Assembly: GCA_016178705.1 (NCBI GenBank)
Contig: JACOST010000019.1
Coordinates: 62,001-126,000 of the forward strand
Direction of reading: 5' to 3'
Length of the DNA stretch: 64,000 nt
From: Deltaproteobacteria bacterium
GTDB taxonomy: Bacteria > Desulfobacterota > Binatia > HRBIN30 > JACQVA1
Position 1 is the stretch's first letter, and the number at the start of each line of letters is the position of its first letter. Below the pieces are notes generated by a model. It did no database searches. It was not told the origin of the DNA and was given only the letters and a program-made list of their open reading frames with translations. The position numbers and the translations under genes are program-made. Positions 17,499 through 26,464 of the stretch are shown one piece after another.

Positions 17499-17823
17499 GC
17501 ACGCACACCTCTCGGATCAGAAGCACCGGCCCCGCTGCCCCTGACATAGCTCCGCCATGACCGCAACGCCCGCTGCTGGCAATCTGCTGCTTGTAAACTG
17601 CATGGGTCAACTTTTGCAAGCCAATTTGGCGGAGGTCTGAGCGCGATGGGCCGAGTACCGAGAGACACCCAGCAAGCCGCAAAGCCCACATTCTGACCAC
17701 TTGGCGCGAAATTACATTGTCATACCCCGGAAGCCCGTGTTACCAAGGATAACTGTGCGCGAAGCCGATGCCGCGAAGCCCAAGGCGGTGAAGCCAATGT
17801 CGCAAAGCCGAGAGGGGGTTTGG
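17499..17823. other. Divergent intergenic region
   Basis: About 325 bases between the minus-strand GT2 fragment and the plus-strand propeller/cytochrome gene. Short ORFs here lack motifs. Near 17756-17812 the word AAGCC recurs at 9-14-base intervals (GCGAAGCC, GCGAAGCCC, GTGAAGCC, GCAAAGCC), which could be an iterated operator. GAGAGGGGG at about 17812 is the ribosome-binding site for the next gene. I cannot place promoter boxes with confidence. Confidence 0.4.
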
Positions 17824-20800
17824 ATGGAGTTCCGATCGTTGCAACGAGTAGGTGCCCGATTGTTGTGTGCTACCAGCCTGCTGTTCGCTAGCGCTGGTGT
17901 CGCCGGCGCCGCGTCTTTTGTCGAGTTCGAGACCGGGCAGGTCCGTCCCCTCGCCTTTTCACCCGACCACACCAAACTCTACGCCATCAACACGCCCGAC
18001 AACCGAGTCGAGATCTACGACGTCGGCGGGCCGAACTACCTGACGCACACCGGCTCGGTGCAGGTCGGCATGGAGCCGGCCGCAGTGGCGGCACGCAACG
18101 CCACCGAGCTGTGGGTGGTGAATCATCTGTCCGACAGCGTCTCGATTGTTGATCTCAGCGCCAATCCCCCGCGAGTGACGCGGACGCTGCTGGTCGGCGA
18201 CGAACCGCGTGACATTGTGTTCGCCGGCCCCGGGGGCAATCGCGCCTTCATCACCACGGCGCATCGCGGACAAAACAATCCCAACGACCCGCAGCTCACC
18301 ACCCCGGGCACCGGACGCGCCGATGTCTGGGTGTTCGACGCTACCAACCTCGGCGCTGCGCTCGGCGGGACGCCGATGACGATCATCACGCTGTTCGCCG
18401 ACACGCCGCGCGCGCTGGCGGTCAGCGCCGACGGTAACACGGTCTATGCGGCGGCTTTTCATTCCGGCAATCAGACCACCACCGTCGCGGAAGCGTTTGT
18501 GTGCAACGGTGGCGCGGGCGCCGTCCCGTGTACGGTTGGCGGCCTCTCGATGCCCGGCGGATTGCCGGCCCCTAACGTCAACGTCGAGAACCGACCGCAG
18601 CCGGAAGTCGGCTTAGTCGTGAAGTTCAATCCCAACACCAGCGCGTGGGAAGACGAACTCGGGCGCAACTGGAACAACGCGGTGCGATTCAGCCTGCCCG
18701 ACAAAGACGTGTTCCTCCTCGATGCCACCGCCAATCCGCCCGTCCCGGTGGCCGGCAACGCCGGCTTCTACGCCGGCGTCGGCACGGTGCTGTTCAACAT
18801 GGCGGTGAACCCGGTGAACGGGAAGGTTTACGTCTCCAACACCGAAGCCTTGAATGAGAACCGCTTCGAGGGCCCCGGCATTCTGGCTGGCCACACCGTG
18901 CGCGGCCACTTGCACGAGAGCCGCATCAGCGTGCTCGCCGGCGGCAGCGCGCAGGCGCGCCACTTGAACAAGCACATCAACTACGCCGTGGTCCCCGGTC
19001 CCGCGACCGAGAACGCCAAGAGCCTGGCCTTCCCGCTCGGCATGGCGGTGTCGTCCAACGGCGTCGACCTGTGGGTCGCCGCGTACGGTTCGAGTAAGAT
19101 CGGTCACTTCACCACTGCCCAGATCGAGGCCGACACGTTCGTACCCGACACCGCAAACCAATACGCGGTCAGCGGTGGCGGCCCGAGCGGCTTGCTGCTC
19201 GATGAGAGCAACAACTGTCTCTACGTGTCGACGCGTTTCGACAACTCGATTTCGGTGGTGTGCCCGAACGCGGCGCCTCCCACCGAAAAGGCGCATTTGC
19301 CCTTGCACAACCCGGAGCCGGCCAGCGTCGTCAATGGCCGGCGCTTCCTCTTCGACGCGTCGTTCACCTCCAGCCATGGCGACTCCGCCTGCGCCAGCTG
19401 TCACGTGTTCGGCGATTTCGACAGTCTCGCGTGGGACCTCGGAAATCCCGACGATAACTTGCTCAACAACCCCGGCCCGTTCATCATTTCATTCCCCGAC
19501 AATCCGCCGTCGCTCTATCGCAACTTCCATCCGATGAAAGGACCGATGACGACGCAGAGCTTGCGCGGCATGGCCGGCCACGGCCCGATGCACTGGCGCG
19601 GCGATCGCACAGGCGGCAACGACGCGCCGAGCGTGCAACCCAACAGCGGCGCGTTCGACGAGGACGCGGCGTTCAAGAAGTTCAACGTCGCCTTCGCCGG
19701 ACTGCTGGGCCGCAGCGGCCCGCTCACCTCGCCCGAGATTCAGGCGTTCACCGACTACATCCTGCAAGTTACTTACCCGCCCAATCCCGTGCGGGCGCTC
19801 AACAACGGGCTCACGCCAGATCAACAGGCCGGGCGCAATTTCTATTTCGGACCGATCTCCGACACGATCCAGCCTTGCAACGGTTGTCACGTACTGAATC
19901 CGAGCCTCGGCTTCTTCGGCGGCGACGGCCGCTCAACATTCGAAGGTGAGACCCAGCACTTCAAGGTGCCGCACCTGCGCAACCTTTATCAAAAGGTCGG
20001 CATGTTCGGCTTCCTGTCAGGCCCTGGCGGTGGTCCCGCGTTCCAAGGCGATCAAGTGCGCGGCTTTGGCTTTCTGCATGATGGCGCCATCGACACGCTC
20101 TTCCGTTTTCACAGCGGCGCGGTCTTCCAATTCCCCGGTGGTGATCCGCAACGGCGGCAAGTCGAGCAATTCATGTTTGCGTTCGACAGCAATCTCGCCC
20201 CGATCGTCGGCCAACAGATCACCCTCACCAATAGCAACGGTGGCGTCGCCGGGCCGCGCATTGATTTGCTGATCGCGCGCGCTGCAGCGAACGAGTGCGA
20301 TCTGACCGTCAAGGGCACCGTGTCAGGCGAGTCGCGCGGCTGGTACCGCACGGCAGCCGGCACGTTCCGCAGCGATCGCGTCGCCGAGCCACTGCTGAGC
20401 GACGCCGCGCTGCGCACGCGCGCCAGCACCGCCGGCCAGGAGCTCACCTACACCTGCGTACCACCAGGCTCCGGCCTTCGTGTCGGCGTCGACCGCGACG
20501 AAGACGGGTTCTTCGATCGTGACGAGCTCGACTTCGGTTCCGATCCCGCCGACGCCGCCAGTCAGCCACTCGGCTGCGGCAATGGCTATCTCAATGCCGG
20601 CGAACAATGCGACGACGGCAACAACATCAGTGGCGACGGCTGCAGCGCCGCGTGTCGCTATGAGCTGATCCCCGGCAACGTCTTTGGTTCGACCGTCTCG
20701 GACAATCGCGCCTGCGTGCTCGAATGGGCAGTGGTCAATCCGACCAACACGCCATGGGCGGATCGCCGCGGGCGCCGCAACTACATCCAGAGCTGCACCA

Positions 20801-21222
20801 ACAACAACGCCAGTTGTGACTTCGACCTCGACGGCAGCAATCGCACCTGCGAGTTCCACGTGGTGGCGTGCCTGAACAACGTCGACCCGCAATTGCCGGG
20901 CTGCATTCAACAAGGTGTGGCCGATCCGGTGCGGGTGCTTCTGCCCAACGCGACGCGTGATCCCGCCAACAACACGAACCTGGTGCAGGCGCTGCAAGAC
21001 CTGCGCGATCCGGTCACCGGCGCGACCGGAGTCATCTTGCCGATCGACACGCCGCAGACCGGCCAATGCACGGCGCCGTTCTCGATCCGTGTCCCGGTGC
21101 GCGGCACCATCGCGCACCCGGTTGCCGGTCGTGGGTACCTGCGCACCCTCGAGCGCTCGTACCAAAATTCGCCTCGAACATTGATCGACGTCGACGGGTT
21201 GACGCTGATCTGCAACCCGTGA
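17824..21222 (+). CDS. Secreted YncE-like beta-propeller / di-heme cytochrome c protein with Myxococcus Cys-rich repeat
   Basis: 1132 residues. A signal peptide ends near GVAGAAS. Residues about 30-480 are propeller repeats (for example PLAFSPDHTKLYAINTPDNR). Two c-type heme sites follow, CASCH near 522 and CNGCH near 684, inside a cytochrome-c-peroxidase/MauG-like region (FKVPHLRNLYQ, FLHDGAIDTL). CGNGYLNAGEQCDDGNN near 918 is the DUF4215-type Cys-rich repeat common in myxobacteria. The end is a unique, Cys-containing domain. The ATG at 17824 has GAGAGGGGG upstream and begins the signal peptide; an earlier in-frame start would bury it. Probably an extracytoplasmic electron-transfer or oxidase protein. 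A strong hairpin follows the gene. Confidence 0.8.
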   Translation: MEFRSLQRVGARLLCATSLLFASAGVAGAASFVEFETGQVRPLAFSPDHTKLYAINTPDNRVEIYDVGGPNYLTHTGSVQVGMEPAAVAARNATELWVVNHLSDSVSIVDLSANPPRVTRTLLVGDEPRDIVFAGPGGNRAFITTAHRGQNNPNDPQLTTPGTGRADVWVFDATNLGAALGGTPMTIITLFADTPRALAVSADGNTVYAAAFHSGNQTTTVAEAFVCNGGAGAVPCTVGGLSMPGGLPAPNVNVENRPQPEVGLVVKFNPNTSAWEDELGRNWNNAVRFSLPDKDVFLLDATANPPVPVAGNAGFYAGVGTVLFNMAVNPVNGKVYVSNTEALNENRFEGPGILAGHTVRGHLHESRISVLAGGSAQARHLNKHINYAVVPGPATENAKSLAFPLGMAVSSNGVDLWVAAYGSSKIGHFTTAQIEADTFVPDTANQYAVSGGGPSGLLLDESNNCLYVSTRFDNSISVVCPNAAPPTEKAHLPLHNPEPASVVNGRRFLFDASFTSSHGDSACASCHVFGDFDSLAWDLGNPDDNLLNNPGPFIISFPDNPPSLYRNFHPMKGPMTTQSLRGMAGHGPMHWRGDRTGGNDAPSVQPNSGAFDEDAAFKKFNVAFAGLLGRSGPLTSPEIQAFTDYILQVTYPPNPVRALNNGLTPDQQAGRNFYFGPISDTIQPCNGCHVLNPSLGFFGGDGRSTFEGETQHFKVPHLRNLYQKVGMFGFLSGPGGGPAFQGDQVRGFGFLHDGAIDTLFRFHSGAVFQFPGGDPQRRQVEQFMFAFDSNLAPIVGQQITLTNSNGGVAGPRIDLLIARAAANECDLTVKGTVSGESRGWYRTAAGTFRSDRVAEPLLSDAALRTRASTAGQELTYTCVPPGSGLRVGVDRDEDGFFDRDELDFGSDPADAASQPLGCGNGYLNAGEQCDDGNNISGDGCSAACRYELIPGNVFGSTVSDNRACVLEWAVVNPTNTPWADRRGRRNYIQSCTNNNASCDFDLDGSNRTCEFHVVACLNNVDPQLPGCIQQGVADPVRVLLPNATRDPANNTNLVQALQDLRDPVTGATGVILPIDTPQTGQCTAPFSIRVPVRGTIAHPVAGRGYLRTLERSYQNSPRTLIDVDGLTLICNP

Positions 21223-21262: not shown

Positions 21263-21360
21263 CGCTTCATTGCGAGCGGTCCCGCCGACTTGTCACGAAC
21301 GGCCGGGGCAGGTAAAGGAGCCTCCTGTTAGGTTCCTGTCCGAGAGGAGGACGTAAGAGT

Positions 21361-22089
21361 ATGGATGCCCGAACTATGCGTCGCATAAAGCGCACGATGC
21401 CGCTTGCACTTCTCGCACTAGTGGCTGCTTGTGGCCCCAGTGCTGACGATGTTTCCGAACTGCGTAGCCAGCAGAAACAGATCCTCGCCAAGCTCAACGA
21501 CCTCGAAAAGAAGATTGACGCGCGTCCGGCCGCACCGCAGGGCGCGCGCCCGCAGGTCGACCCCAACAAGGTTGTCGATGTTCCGATCGCCAAATCGCCG
21601 GTGAGAGGCGCTAAAGATGGCCGGGTGATCATCGCCGAGTTCTCTGACTTCCAATGACCCTTCTGCTCGCAGTCCGCCGGTCTGGTGGACCAAATCCTCA
21701 AGGAGTACCCGAAGGACGCGCAGTTCGTGTACAAGCAGTACCCGCTGCCGATGCACCCGTTTGCGATGGACGCGGCGAAGGCGTCACTGGCCGCGAGTAG
21801 GCAAGGCAAGTTCTGGGAGATGCACGATCAACTGTTCGCCAACAACAAGGCTCTGCAAGCCGACAAGCTGAAGGAGTACGCCCAGAAGATCGGCCTCGAT
21901 GCCGCCAAGTTCGAAGCCGACATGAAGTCCCCGGAGATTCAGCAGCAGGTCCAAGACGAAATTAAGCTCGGCAACGACGTCGGGGTCACCGGCACACCGA
22001 CCATCTTCGTAAACGGCAAGCGCCTGATGAACCGGTCGCCGGAAGGCTTCCGTGCGATGATCGATGAGATCATAAAGAAGCCGAGCTAA
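21361..22089 (+). CDS. DsbA-like thioredoxin-fold lipoprotein, probable selenoprotein (UxxC)
   Basis: 242 residues if TGA 21655-21657 is read as selenocysteine. ATG 21361 follows GAGGAGG. The signal peptide ends LVAAC, a lipobox. Residues about 27-50 form a short coiled coil (ELRSQQKQILAKLNDLEKK). The thioredoxin-fold domain begins VIIAEFSDFQ, then TGA, then PFCSQSAG: DsbA-family proteins have CPFC exactly there. After it come the helical insert and GVTGTPTIFVNG with the cis-Pro. The frame is intact on both sides and the only lesion is at the catalytic Cys. A stem-loop with loop GGTCT lies at 21672-21690. A nonsense mutation or sequencing error is the alternative. Likely role: envelope thiol-disulfide chemistry. 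Confidence 0.8.
21655..21690 (+). promoter_or_regulatory. SECIS-like element at the in-frame UGA
   Basis: After UGA (21655-21657) and a 14-base spacer, GTCCGCC (21672-21678) pairs with GGTGGAC (21684-21690) in a 7-bp stem with one G-U pair and the loop GGTCT. The loop matches the GGUCU core of the Escherichia coli fdhF SECIS. Bacterial SECIS hairpins sit inside the coding region directly downstream of UGA with G in the first loop positions, and bind SelB. No selA, selB, selC or selD gene is in the window. Confidence 0.7.
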
Positions 22090-22224
22090 CCTCCGGAGTC
22101 CGTGCCGCGCCGCTCAGACGCGCCACCGACCATTCGCGCGCCAGAGCTTGCCCTTCCGGCCAACTTCGCTTGGCGGACCTGCAACATTCGTGTAGGTTGG
22201 CTCAACCTGGAAGATGGGGGTTCT

Positions 22225-24132
22225 ATGCGAGCGTACCTCGTGCGAGTGGGATTGAAGACTTCGGCAAATGTCCTGATCGTGGCATTGTGCGCGGGGTTGG
22301 CGGCCTGTGGTGATGGCGGTGATGGAAATGGTGGCGGCGCCGCCGTCGATACGGCCACTCCAGTAGCCACGGCCACCGCGACGCGGGTGCCACCCACCGC
22401 AACCAACGTCCCAACCGCAACCGCTATACCGGCCACCGCAACCAACGTTCCTACGCTTACGACCGTGCCGACCAACACCGCAACACCGGTGCCGAATACC
22501 CCGACCGCCACCGCAACCACCGTGGTATCGGGACAGTGCGCCGATGCACCGAAGGCGTACGCCAGCACCTTCGCCGGAATTCAGGATGTGATCTTCGAAC
22601 GTCGCGGCTGCACCGAGTCGGCCTGCCACGGCGCGGCACAGCAAGGCGGATTGGACCTCCGATCTGATGTAGCCTACGACAACTTGATAGAGGTAGGTTC
22701 CAGCGAGAGCAGCCTCGATCGCATACGCCCCGGCGACAAGGACCGCAGCTATCTCTTCCTCAAGCTCGCGGCCGCCACCAAACCGAGCATCTTGCCTCCG
22801 GGCACGCAGATCTCCGGTGCACCGATGCCGAACGGCCTCCCGGCGCTCAGCGAGGACGAACTCGAAATCGTTCGCCTATGGATCCTCAACGGCGCACCCA
22901 AGACCGGCACCGTGGAAGGCACAGCGGCCCTGCTGGGCGCTTGCCTCCCGCCACCCGAACCGATCGTTATCAAACCCCTCGATCCGCCGGCGACCGGCGA
23001 AGGCATTCAACTCGAGATGCCGCCATGGAAGTTGGAGGCGCATAGCGAGCACGAGATCTGCTTCGCCACGTACTACGACATCAGTCAGCAAGTGCCGCCC
23101 GAGTTTCTCGATCCTGCTACAGGCACCGCGTTCCTGTTCGACAGCAGCGAGCTGCGCCAAGACGCGCAGAGCCATCACTTGATTCTCAACCGCTACGTGG
23201 GCTCGATTGACGATATCAACGATCCCTCGCTGGGAGACTGGACGTGCAGCGGCGGCGCGCACGACAGCGACGCTTGCGATCCGACGGATGTTCACGCCTG
23301 TGGCACCGACGGCTTCTGCCGCAGCCAGATCCGCCAGTCGTTCGCCTGCATTGGCTTCGGCCCGTCAGTAGGCGGGCAGTCCTTCTACGCCATCGGCGGT
23401 TCGCAAACGGCGCAGTCGTACACCCACTACATCCCCGGGGTGTACGCACAGATTCCCACCAAAGGCGTCCTGTACTGGAACTCGCACGCCTTCAATTTGA
23501 CCGACCAAGACACGATGATGCACGCGCGGCTGAACTACTACTTCGCCAAGGATCCGCGCCATTCAGTGCGACCCATCTTCGACACGAGAATGATTTTCGC
23601 CGCCAACGCGCCGCCGTACACGACCCAGACGATCTGTAACGACTTCGTGCTGCCGCAGGGCGCCCGGCTGTTCAACTTGTCGTCGCACACCCATCGCCAC
23701 GGCAAGCACTTTACGATCGCTCTGTCCGACGGCACCCAACTCTACGAGAGTTTCGTCTACAACGATCCGGTCGATACTACGTTCAACCCGCCGTTGATGT
23801 TCGACTCGCCCGATCCCGTGCAGCGCACGCTGCACTTCTGCTCGCTCTACAACAACGGCATGAACAGCGACGGTTCACCCGACCCCGACTTCGTCACGCG
23901 CCGATCGCACGTGCCCGACAGCGCCCGCAATACCTTCGGCCTGTGCACGCCCGTGGCCTGCACCAAGGGTAAGGTCGGAGCCGCATGTCATGGCACCAAG
24001 GATCACCACACCTGCGACACCGCGGAAGGCGCCAACGACGGTTTCTGCGACGCATGCCCGATCACTGGCGGTGAGAGCACCGAGAACGAAATGTTCATCT
24101 TGATCGGTTCGTACTACCTCGACGAAGAGTAA
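22225..24132 (+). CDS. Copper type II monooxygenase-like lipoprotein with cytochrome-like motif
   Basis: 635 residues. ATG 22225 opens a lipoprotein signal ending AGLAAC; a Gly/Asp stretch and a Thr/Ala/Pro linker (residues about 35-90, with repeated ATNVPT words) act as a stalk. GCTESACHGAAQQGGLDL near 135 resembles planctomycete-type cytochrome c but spaces the cysteines CX4CH. The large remainder has His clusters of Cu-dependent ascorbate monooxygenase folds: SHHLILNRYVG near 315 and SSHTHRHGKHFTIAL near 490. Several Cys follow. It should be an envelope-anchored copper oxidoreductase. A bidirectional hairpin follows the stop. Confidence 0.7.
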   Translation: MRAYLVRVGLKTSANVLIVALCAGLAACGDGGDGNGGGAAVDTATPVATATATRVPPTATNVPTATAIPATATNVPTLTTVPTNTATPVPNTPTATATTVVSGQCADAPKAYASTFAGIQDVIFERRGCTESACHGAAQQGGLDLRSDVAYDNLIEVGSSESSLDRIRPGDKDRSYLFLKLAAATKPSILPPGTQISGAPMPNGLPALSEDELEIVRLWILNGAPKTGTVEGTAALLGACLPPPEPIVIKPLDPPATGEGIQLEMPPWKLEAHSEHEICFATYYDISQQVPPEFLDPATGTAFLFDSSELRQDAQSHHLILNRYVGSIDDINDPSLGDWTCSGGAHDSDACDPTDVHACGTDGFCRSQIRQSFACIGFGPSVGGQSFYAIGGSQTAQSYTHYIPGVYAQIPTKGVLYWNSHAFNLTDQDTMMHARLNYYFAKDPRHSVRPIFDTRMIFAANAPPYTTQTICNDFVLPQGARLFNLSSHTHRHGKHFTIALSDGTQLYESFVYNDPVDTTFNPPLMFDSPDPVQRTLHFCSLYNNGMNSDGSPDPDFVTRRSHVPDSARNTFGLCTPVACTKGKVGAACHGTKDHHTCDTAEGANDGFCDACPITGGESTENEMFILIGSYYLDEE

Positions 24133-25246: not shown

Positions 25247-26464
25247 TCACGTCCGGTAGTCTGAATTGAAGCGCACGTAATCCACGCTGAGATCCGACGC
25301 CATGCGGTGAGCGACGGCGCGGCCCGCGTGCAGGTCGATGGTCAAACTGAACTCAGGCCGCGCAACGACCTTCGAGGCGCGCGCTTCGACCGAACCGACG
25401 ACTTCGACGCCGCGCCGGACGACCTGCACATCATCGAGGAACACGTCGAGCTTCGCCGGTTCGAACACCGCGCCACTGTAGCCGGCAGCGCACACGATGC
25501 GGCCCGTGTACGGATCGCCGCCGAAGAACGCCGCCTTGCACAGCGGCGAGCGCGCGATCGCATCCGCGACACGCTCGGCATCCGCAACGGTCCGCGCGCG
25601 CCGGACGGTGATGTCGATCAGTTTCGTCGCGCCCTCCCCGTCTTTCACCACCATGCGCGCCAGCGTGCGCATGATCCGCCCGACCGCACCCGCGAACGCG
25701 GCGAAGTCGCGCGCCGTCGATTTCAGCTCTCGATTGCCGGCGACGCCATTGGCGAGCAGCAGCACCGTATCGTTGGTGCTGGTATCGCCATCGACGACGG
25801 CCGCGTTGAACGATTGCGGCAGACTCAGGTCGAGTACTTTTCGAAGCGCAGTGCGCGACACGCGCGCATCGGTGAGAATGTAGCTCAACAAGGTTGCGTG
25901 CGGCACCATGCGGGGCGCGATCATGCCCGCACCCTTCGCCATCCCGGCGATCGTCACGTCGCGCCCATCGAGCATGAGTCCCTCGACGGCAAACTTCGGA
26001 AACGCGTCGGTGGTCATGATGCCTTCGAGCGCGCGATGGAAACCGTCGGCACTGAGATCGCGGCAGGCAGCGGTCACTCCTTTGCGGACGGCCTCCCGCG
26101 GCAACTGCACGCCGATGCGACCGGTCGACGACGGGATGACCAGGTTCCGACTGATCCCCAATTGTTGTGCGGCCAGCGCGCACAGCTCGCGGGCGAGTCG
26201 CAAGCCATCGCGGCCAGTGTACGCATTGGCGTTGCCGCTATTCACCAGCACCGCCTGCACCCTGCCACCGCGGATGCGTTCCTTGCCGAGCAGCACCGGT
26301 GCCGCTTGCACGCGATTGGTCGTGAACGCCGCCACCGCGGTGGCCGGCTCATCCGACACAATCAACCCGATGTCGCGCTTGCCGCTGGCCTTCAACCCAC
26401 ACGCCGCCGCGCCGAAGCGGTAGCCCGGCACGCGAATGGGAACCTGCTTCACGTCGATCTTCAT
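25247..26464 (-). CDS. argJ: Bifunctional glutamate N-acetyltransferase / ornithine acetyltransferase
   Basis: 405 residues, the normal length. ArgJ transfers acetyl from N-acetylornithine to glutamate in the cyclic arginine pathway. LVNSGNANAYTG, GMAKGAGMIAP, HATLLSYILTDA (the Ala-Thr autocleavage site, whose Thr is the nucleophile), VDGDTSTNDT and the C-terminal VRFNSDYRT are all present, so it should self-process into alpha and beta chains. The family occurs in mono- and bifunctional forms and sequence inspection cannot separate them. No other arg gene is in the window. Confidence 0.95.
   Translation of the reverse strand: MKIDVKQVPIRVPGYRFGAAACGLKASGKRDIGLIVSDEPATAVAAFTTNRVQAAPVLLGKERIRGGRVQAVLVNSGNANAYTGRDGLRLARELCALAAQQLGISRNLVIPSSTGRIGVQLPREAVRKGVTAACRDLSADGFHRALEGIMTTDAFPKFAVEGLMLDGRDVTIAGMAKGAGMIAPRMVPHATLLSYILTDARVSRTALRKVLDLSLPQSFNAAVVDGDTSTNDTVLLLANGVAGNRELKSTARDFAAFAGAVGRIMRTLARMVVKDGEGATKLIDITVRRARTVADAERVADAIARSPLCKAAFFGGDPYTGRIVCAAGYSGAVFEPAKLDVFLDDVQVVRRGVEVVGSVEARASKVVARPEFSLTIDLHAGRAVAHRMASDLSVDYVRFNSDYRT

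Follow-up and report, generated by a model that had tools for sequence, protein, structure and literature searches.

The gene at positions 21361–22089 (+ strand) of the window, the whole 64,000-nucleotide stretch of DNA analysed here, almost certainly puts selenocysteine (Sec) into the active site of a DsbA-like, predicted lipoprotein by means of an in-frame UGA. Frame analysis, homologues and conservation all support a product of 242 residues with the TGA read as Sec, and a probable ribosome-binding site, AGGAGG (21345–21350, + strand), lies 10 nt upstream of the ATG. The frame contains exactly two stops, the TGA at codon 99 (21655–21657, + strand) and the terminal TAA at codon 243. The preliminary description had held that the only break in an otherwise intact DsbA-family frame is a TGA at the first catalytic Cys, and reading the frame confirmed this. 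The surrounding peptide is EFSDFQ-U-PFC, with the predicted Sec as residue 99 at position 1 of U-P-F-C. The second residue of the active-site pair, Cys102 (TGC, 21664–21666, + strand), is invariant in alignment A3, as are Pro100 and Thr212-Pro213 (53 aligned proteins). Sec insertion at residue 99 is itself predicted from sequence, and this reading of the TGA is supported by the Sec machinery of the genome, the recurrence of TGA in homologues, a covarying hairpin and selection on the downstream sequence. Because a plain table-11 ORF listing cuts the gene at its active site, into 21361–21657 and 21685–22089, such enzymes are easily overlooked; read through the TGA, the gene extends the envelope redox enzymes by a Sec DsbA with a stalk and a predicted lipid anchor.

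To place the TGA in its family, we sampled 118 genomes, the window's own and 117 relatives. A homologue was found at E 1e-15 in 113 of the 118, and at least 25 genomes (own included) carry a homologue with one TGA, in at least 26 places. Among the matches listed, the TGA is the codon for the first Cys of CxxC in 26 of 26 such places. We fetched the loci of all 26 listed TGA places and of many Cys places, and in the resulting alignment the active-site codon is either Cys or TGA. The homologous frames spanning this codon include 33 of 180 with TGA (30 distinct genes), which is not a frequency because the sample was picked to include TGA genes and some loci overlap. An in-frame UGA where homologues carry Cys is one of the features by which bacterial selenoproteins are recognised.

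The nearest relative among the matches listed (G001) belongs to another genus of the same family and is 81% identical. It keeps the same single TGA and the hairpin described below, with no further stop. Beyond the TGA (143 codons), the window and this relative differ with a dN of 0.098 and a dS of 0.818 (dN/dS ∼0.12), and the differences fall 17, 12 and 47 times at the first, second and third codon positions. These sequence comparisons indicate that the region downstream of the TGA is under purifying selection. The TGA could instead be a true stop or a sequencing error, leaving a broken gene, and a hairpin that in the window alone lies within chance would suit such a reading. However, TGA and hairpin recur in other genomes, the frame holds no other internal stop and dN/dS past the TGA is low; we rejected a pseudogene or sequencing error on the basis of TGA recurrence, selection and covariation, and regard it as next to impossible.

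All four Sec genes sought were found in the window's genome (6.1 Mb, 33 contigs, 98% complete by tool estimate). selA (597 bits), selB (389 bits) and selD (407 bits) each score above their cut-offs, and tRNA-Sec scores 74.7 bits against a cut-off of 47, with the anticodon UCA assigned by ARAGORN. selB adjoins selA, and selD carries an in-frame TGA of its own (FSHGAG-U-ACK). We fetched 46 further tRNA places and read them with ARAGORN, giving 47 tRNAs together with tRNA-Sec. Within these 47, the anticodon UCA belongs to tRNA-Sec alone, while Trp has CCA and Cys has GCA; Ile-GAT and Ala-TGC were absent from the 47 tRNAs read, so the set is not fully complete. A reassigned code or suppressor tRNA was rejected because the sole UCA among the 47 is that of tRNA-Sec, and a reassigned code is also countered by the neighbouring frame at 17701–21222, which itself ends in TGA. 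A related alternative is that near-cognate readthrough or a different tRNA decodes UGA as Cys or Trp, which would agree with Cys as the usual residue at the position of codon 99. We consider this highly improbable, given that tRNA-Sec is the sole UCA tRNA found in the incomplete list, that the hairpin associates with TGA genes and that Sec machinery genes are present.

Across the sampled genomes, selA is found in 24 of 25 TGA genomes versus 70 of 93 others among the matches listed (one-sided Fisher p 0.015), and in 16 of 17 versus 12 of 24 of the 41 genomes hand-picked for a close match (p 0.003); we treat this association as only supportive because the genomes are related and the TGA genomes were counted among the matches listed. 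One genome with TGA, G047, has a tRNA-Sec (81.4 bits) without selA and with no selB above cut-off. An assembly gap may explain this, because selA lies next to selB both in G034 and in the genome of the window. For its part, G034 has selA and selB, with no tRNA-Sec above cut-off among the 150 of 813 candidates scored. Two genomes with a Cys gene and without selA were checked for the other machinery genes: there is a tRNA-Sec match of 50.8 bits, just above the cut-off of 47, in G021 and a selB fragment at a contig end in G008.

A SECIS-type hairpin follows the TGA at 21672–21690 (+ strand), as assessed by folding, a model test and covariation. Its stem, GTCCGCC/GGTGGAC, pairs 21672–21678 with 21684–21690 around the loop GGTCT (21679–21683), which we take to be equal to the core of the E. 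coli fdhF SECIS. The spacer between TGA and stem is 14 nt (21658–21671), and the loop begins 21 nt past the TGA. The 14-base spacer, 7-bp stem and loop reported earlier are therefore all present. The calculated energy is −11.9 kcal/mol in a 46-nt context and −10.9 kcal/mol for the hairpin alone. According to a figure legend in PMC13188914, the bSECIS model specifies a loop of 3–9 nt, a stem of 4–16 bp, a G within loop positions 1–2, a UGA-loop spacing of 16–37 nt and an MFE ≤ −7.5 kcal/mol. The values at 21655–21690 lie inside these ranges (loop 5, stem 7, GG, 21 nt, −10.9 kcal/mol).

By itself, the window hairpin is within chance. An equally stable bSECIS-type hairpin follows 56 of the 1715 TGA triplets that the window's two strands contain, and the 46-nt hairpin context has a z of −0.80; on these grounds we rejected the hairpin as stand-alone proof of Sec. 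It rises above chance because the TGA is exactly placed, because TGA and hairpin recur together and because the stem covaries in relatives. With a strict no-bulge measure, a hairpin at or below −7.5 kcal/mol is found in 17 of 30 distinct Sec genes versus 3 of 139 Cys genes. The other 13 Sec homologues fall short of this value, one of them at −1.5; of the 26 close Cys genes, 2 attain it. The difference in hairpin energy between Sec and Cys genes gave a Mann-Whitney p of 6e-16, which is indicative only, because the sequences share kinship.

Covariation was measured in two sets. The first was an alignment of 16 distinct close Sec sequences, for which no gaps were needed. Pairing holds in 91.1% of its cells, and covariation scores 0.324 versus 0.186 when shuffled, with 0 of 500 shuffles as high. 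Two other measures do not rise above shuffled data: three pairs changed on both sides (matched by 157 of 500 shuffles) and five further pair types occurred (matched by 416 of 500). In 8 of the 16 sequences the second outermost stem pair fails. The second set comprised 19 distinct 19-base hairpins, of which 13 belong to the close set and 6 come from Sec genes that are more divergent. In this set, which leans towards structure because its hairpins were located by loop pattern, 88.7% of cells pair and the score is 0.649 versus 0.212 when shuffled (0 of 500 as high). Six of the seven stem pairs change on both sides, a count matched by 32 of 500 shuffles, and shifting the partner strand along abolishes the covariation signal.

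The catalytic residue has changed repeatedly within the family. With the catalytic residue masked, we built a quick tree from those of the 180 frames that were distinct, long enough and scored at least 140 bits, which gave 73 rows (27 Sec). On this tree a minimum of 7 changes between Sec and Cys is needed, and the well-supported branches force at least 3. Among the matches listed, G017, G023, G050 and G083 each have a Sec copy right beside a Cys copy. Such adjacent copies, with and without the hairpin, are natural pairs for testing what Sec buys in disulfide exchange.

The predicted protein has three parts. A lipoprotein signal peptide (21361–21432, + strand) carries the lipobox V-A-A-C, read by eye, with Cys24 as the residue expected to be lipidated; comparable lipoboxes were found in many homologues by regular expression, and lipid modification of the Sec protein is likewise predicted. 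Next comes an amphipathic helix, residues 28–54 (21442–21522, + strand), the putative oligomerising stalk. The AlphaFold2 model (mean pLDDT 90.9) consists of this helix, a linker and the DsbA domain. Heptad a/d positions of the helix are occupied by V31, L34, Q38, I41, L45, L48 and I52, an arrangement equalled by 7 of 20000 shuffles. The model and the heptad test thus bear out the coiled-coil stalk of the preliminary description. Additionally, 35 of 36 homologues with a recognisable lipobox (Sec and Cys rows) have a 28-residue segment matched by ≤ 10 of 1000 shuffles, the best segment having been preselected. The third part is a DsbA-like thioredoxin-fold domain, residues 78–236 (21592–22068, + strand), assigned by Pfam (Thioredoxin_4 93.5 bits, DSBA 90.0 bits), the model and Foldseek. 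Its best fold matches are 3gyk, Wolbachia alpha-DsbA2 (6eez), BdbD, C. crescentus ScsC and C. diphtheriae DsbA. The invariant Thr212-Pro213 (21994–21999, + strand) is the expected Thr-cis-Pro facing the active site.

We favour, with moderate confidence and by analogy, a role as isomerase or reductase working with DsbD; on balance the protein is probably a membrane-tethered, oligomeric, selenium-dependent enzyme of this type, probably recharged by DsbD. SelB with Sec-tRNA(UCA) would bind the hairpin just past the UGA at 21655–21657 and Sec would be inserted, giving the active site U99-P-F-C102 within the DsbA-fold domain. In the envelope, this domain would be joined to the lipid anchor through the heptad-repeat helix. 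That helix probably drives oligomerisation, which would make the protein an isomerase or reductase rather than an oxidase, by analogy with P. mirabilis ScsC (PmScsC), C. crescentus ScsC (CcScsC) and Wolbachia alpha-DsbA2. In the part of PMC6450060 available, DsbA-like proteins with helical N-terminal extensions are described as oligomers with isomerase activity, and alpha-DsbA2 loses its isomerase activity once the extension is removed; CcScsC is described as trimeric in the corresponding part of PMC8900818. A DsbD-type protein encoded in the same genome (619 residues, PF02683 150.9 bits, flanking DsbD domains by sequence reading) may keep the Sec protein reduced. With Sec at the attacking position, exchange could be faster, or an oxidised site could be repaired more readily.

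Since a VKOR-DsbA fusion with Cys is also encoded in the genome, an oxidising partner exists besides the reducing one, and an oxidase role is possible. The Sec protein would then be a DsbA-type disulfide oxidase near the membrane, re-oxidised by VKOR or another oxidant, as its DsbA-family domain and the presence of BdbD among the close fold matches could also suggest. However, the N-terminal heptad stalk and the Thr-Pro motif resemble those of isomerases, the VKOR already bears a DsbA domain of its own, and the window protein reaches 27.9 bits with the E. coli DsbA equivalog NF008198 against a cut-off of 279. We therefore rate an oxidase as rather unlikely.

The neighbouring genes bear on a further alternative. 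Upstream lies a beta-propeller protein with two CxxCH motifs (17701–21222). The downstream gene (22102–24132, + strand) encodes 676 residues with 21 Cys and CTESACH, HH and HTH motifs, and searches with its product found nothing in Pfam at 0.001 or, by sequence, in the PDB at 0.1. We call it copper-type since its HH and HTH motifs presumably recall copper monooxygenases. The Sec gene had been described as lying beside envelope cytochrome and copper proteins; both are indeed adjacent in the window, but they are mostly not conserved, and within the order argJ is more often the neighbour. We compared neighbourhoods in 8 of the 14 relatives at family or order level, namely the ones whose locus had been fetched. 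Near the DsbA gene, argJ is present in six of the eight, the copper-type gene in one (G007) and the propeller gene in none, although most flanks are only ∼1.5 kb and missing neighbours are therefore soft evidence. In the window, argJ lies at 25247–26464, past two other genes. Across these eight relatives, the idea that the gene forms a functional unit with its cytochrome and copper-type neighbours is unsupported as a general rule.

The copper-type gene downstream, together with its homologue beside the Cys version in G007, would fit a Sec protein that serves in metal handling or oxidant repair, for example by binding copper(I), and not in protein folding; the title of one paper likewise states that CcScsC binds copper(I). 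Such a role is improbable, as the copper-type neighbour recurs in one of eight relatives and the domain has a fold that serves thiol-disulfide exchange in general. The isomerase or reductase reading remains the one we prefer. A fuller version of it is more tentative, though a real possibility: a Sec-dependent, membrane-tethered, coiled-coil oligomeric isomerase in a lineage switching repeatedly between Sec and Cys, with paired copies perhaps being selenium-replete and selenium-poor versions.

Other Sec DsbA genes and related loci were also seen. In G018, one gene (L155:3261–4478, + strand) joins a VKOR membrane domain to a DsbA domain with TGA in place of the first active-site Cys codon (EFVDFR-U-PAC). 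Another Sec DsbA gene lies ∼1.3 kb away, and in the seven related loci, L148–L154, a matching motif has Cys. L148–L155 also show a second architecture, in which the Sec DsbA domain is fused to an N-terminal region resembling SurA or a rotamase (codons such as L148:2629, + strand). These fusions have a hairpin of their own, with stem GAGTGC and loop AGTCT in L148–L154, and the window's genome encodes a Cys protein of the same clade at G000:C31:353177. A Myxococcota MAG has the same layout of lipobox, helix-like stalk and Sec DsbA domain (L071:2769, + strand), with the hairpin GAGAGTC-GGTCC-GACTCTC. In a Chloroflexi MAG, a lipoprotein-like frame (L119:4383–6251, + strand) carries DsbA domains in tandem: in both of the first two, TGA takes the place of the first Cys codon, and a third related domain behind them has a Ser codon there. 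The loop in this frame is a different one, CGTGA. Lastly, the uncultured bacterium O_MB67 has seven regularly spaced DsbA-like active-site motifs with Cys in a single frame, its TGA read through (L068, 2895–6783, + strand), which is perhaps a multi-domain protein or a gene array.

That Sec DsbA-like proteins are known in some bacteria, as stated at the outset, is borne out by published selenoprotein lists: they appear in the portions available of PMC1794560, PMC1088965, PMC9312934 and PMC2398784. In the available text of PMC13188914, a 2026 review, the high-confidence predicted selenoproteins include "DsbA-like protein form 1" (PF01323, UxxC), credited to the study numbered 59, and "DsbG-like protein" (NF041057, UxxC), and the functions of such selenoproteins are called largely uncharacterised. 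A literature search for "selenolipoprotein" found no paper, and PMC12013277 contains no Dsb terms. The window protein resembles form 1 in its PF01323 score (90.0 bits against a cut-off of 25.6), in U99-P-F-C102 as an instance of UxxC and in the SECIS-type hairpin right after the UGA. By description it differs from form 1 (example NIP15863.1) in its lipobox and heptad-repeat stalk. NF041057, the Rcas_1661 family of thioredoxin-like (seleno)lipoproteins, comprises lipoproteins with a U-x-x-C DsbA-like domain, a layout also predicted for the window protein, and window residues 15–236 align with nearly the whole profile (3–246). The score of 77.1 bits, however, is below the equivalog cut-off of 190, and we rejected membership. 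The Chloroflexi frame in L119 is a member (396 bits, above the cut-off) with two Sec domains and no evident coiled coil by eye.

The stalked isomerases P. mirabilis ScsC, C. crescentus ScsC and Wolbachia alpha-DsbA2 share the DsbA fold and a helical N-terminal extension with the window protein, which has the fold with its Thr-Pro motif and the extension at residues 28–54. In CcScsC the motif is Thr191-cis-Pro192, according to the part of PMC8900818 available, compared with Thr212-Pro213 here. Those enzymes use a catalytic Cys, as described in the available parts of PMC6450060 and PMC8900818, whereas the window protein has a predicted Sec and lipid anchor. The closest solved structure is 3gyk, a thioredoxin-like oxidoreductase from Silicibacter pomeroyi, which is the best match by both sequence (E 1.3e-18) and Foldseek (E 6.1e-12, TMt 0.84). 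It is 26% identical in the fold alignment, and its solved chain (174 residues) starts near the catalytic domain. The preliminary description had expected a membrane-anchored form with a coiled-coil stalk to be distinctive; the predicted stalk is supported, but Sec thioredoxin-like lipoproteins already form a named family, NF041057. Since Sec DsbA-like proteins and this family are known, the kind is not new, and the window gene is a well-supported new member of it with an unusual stalked design.
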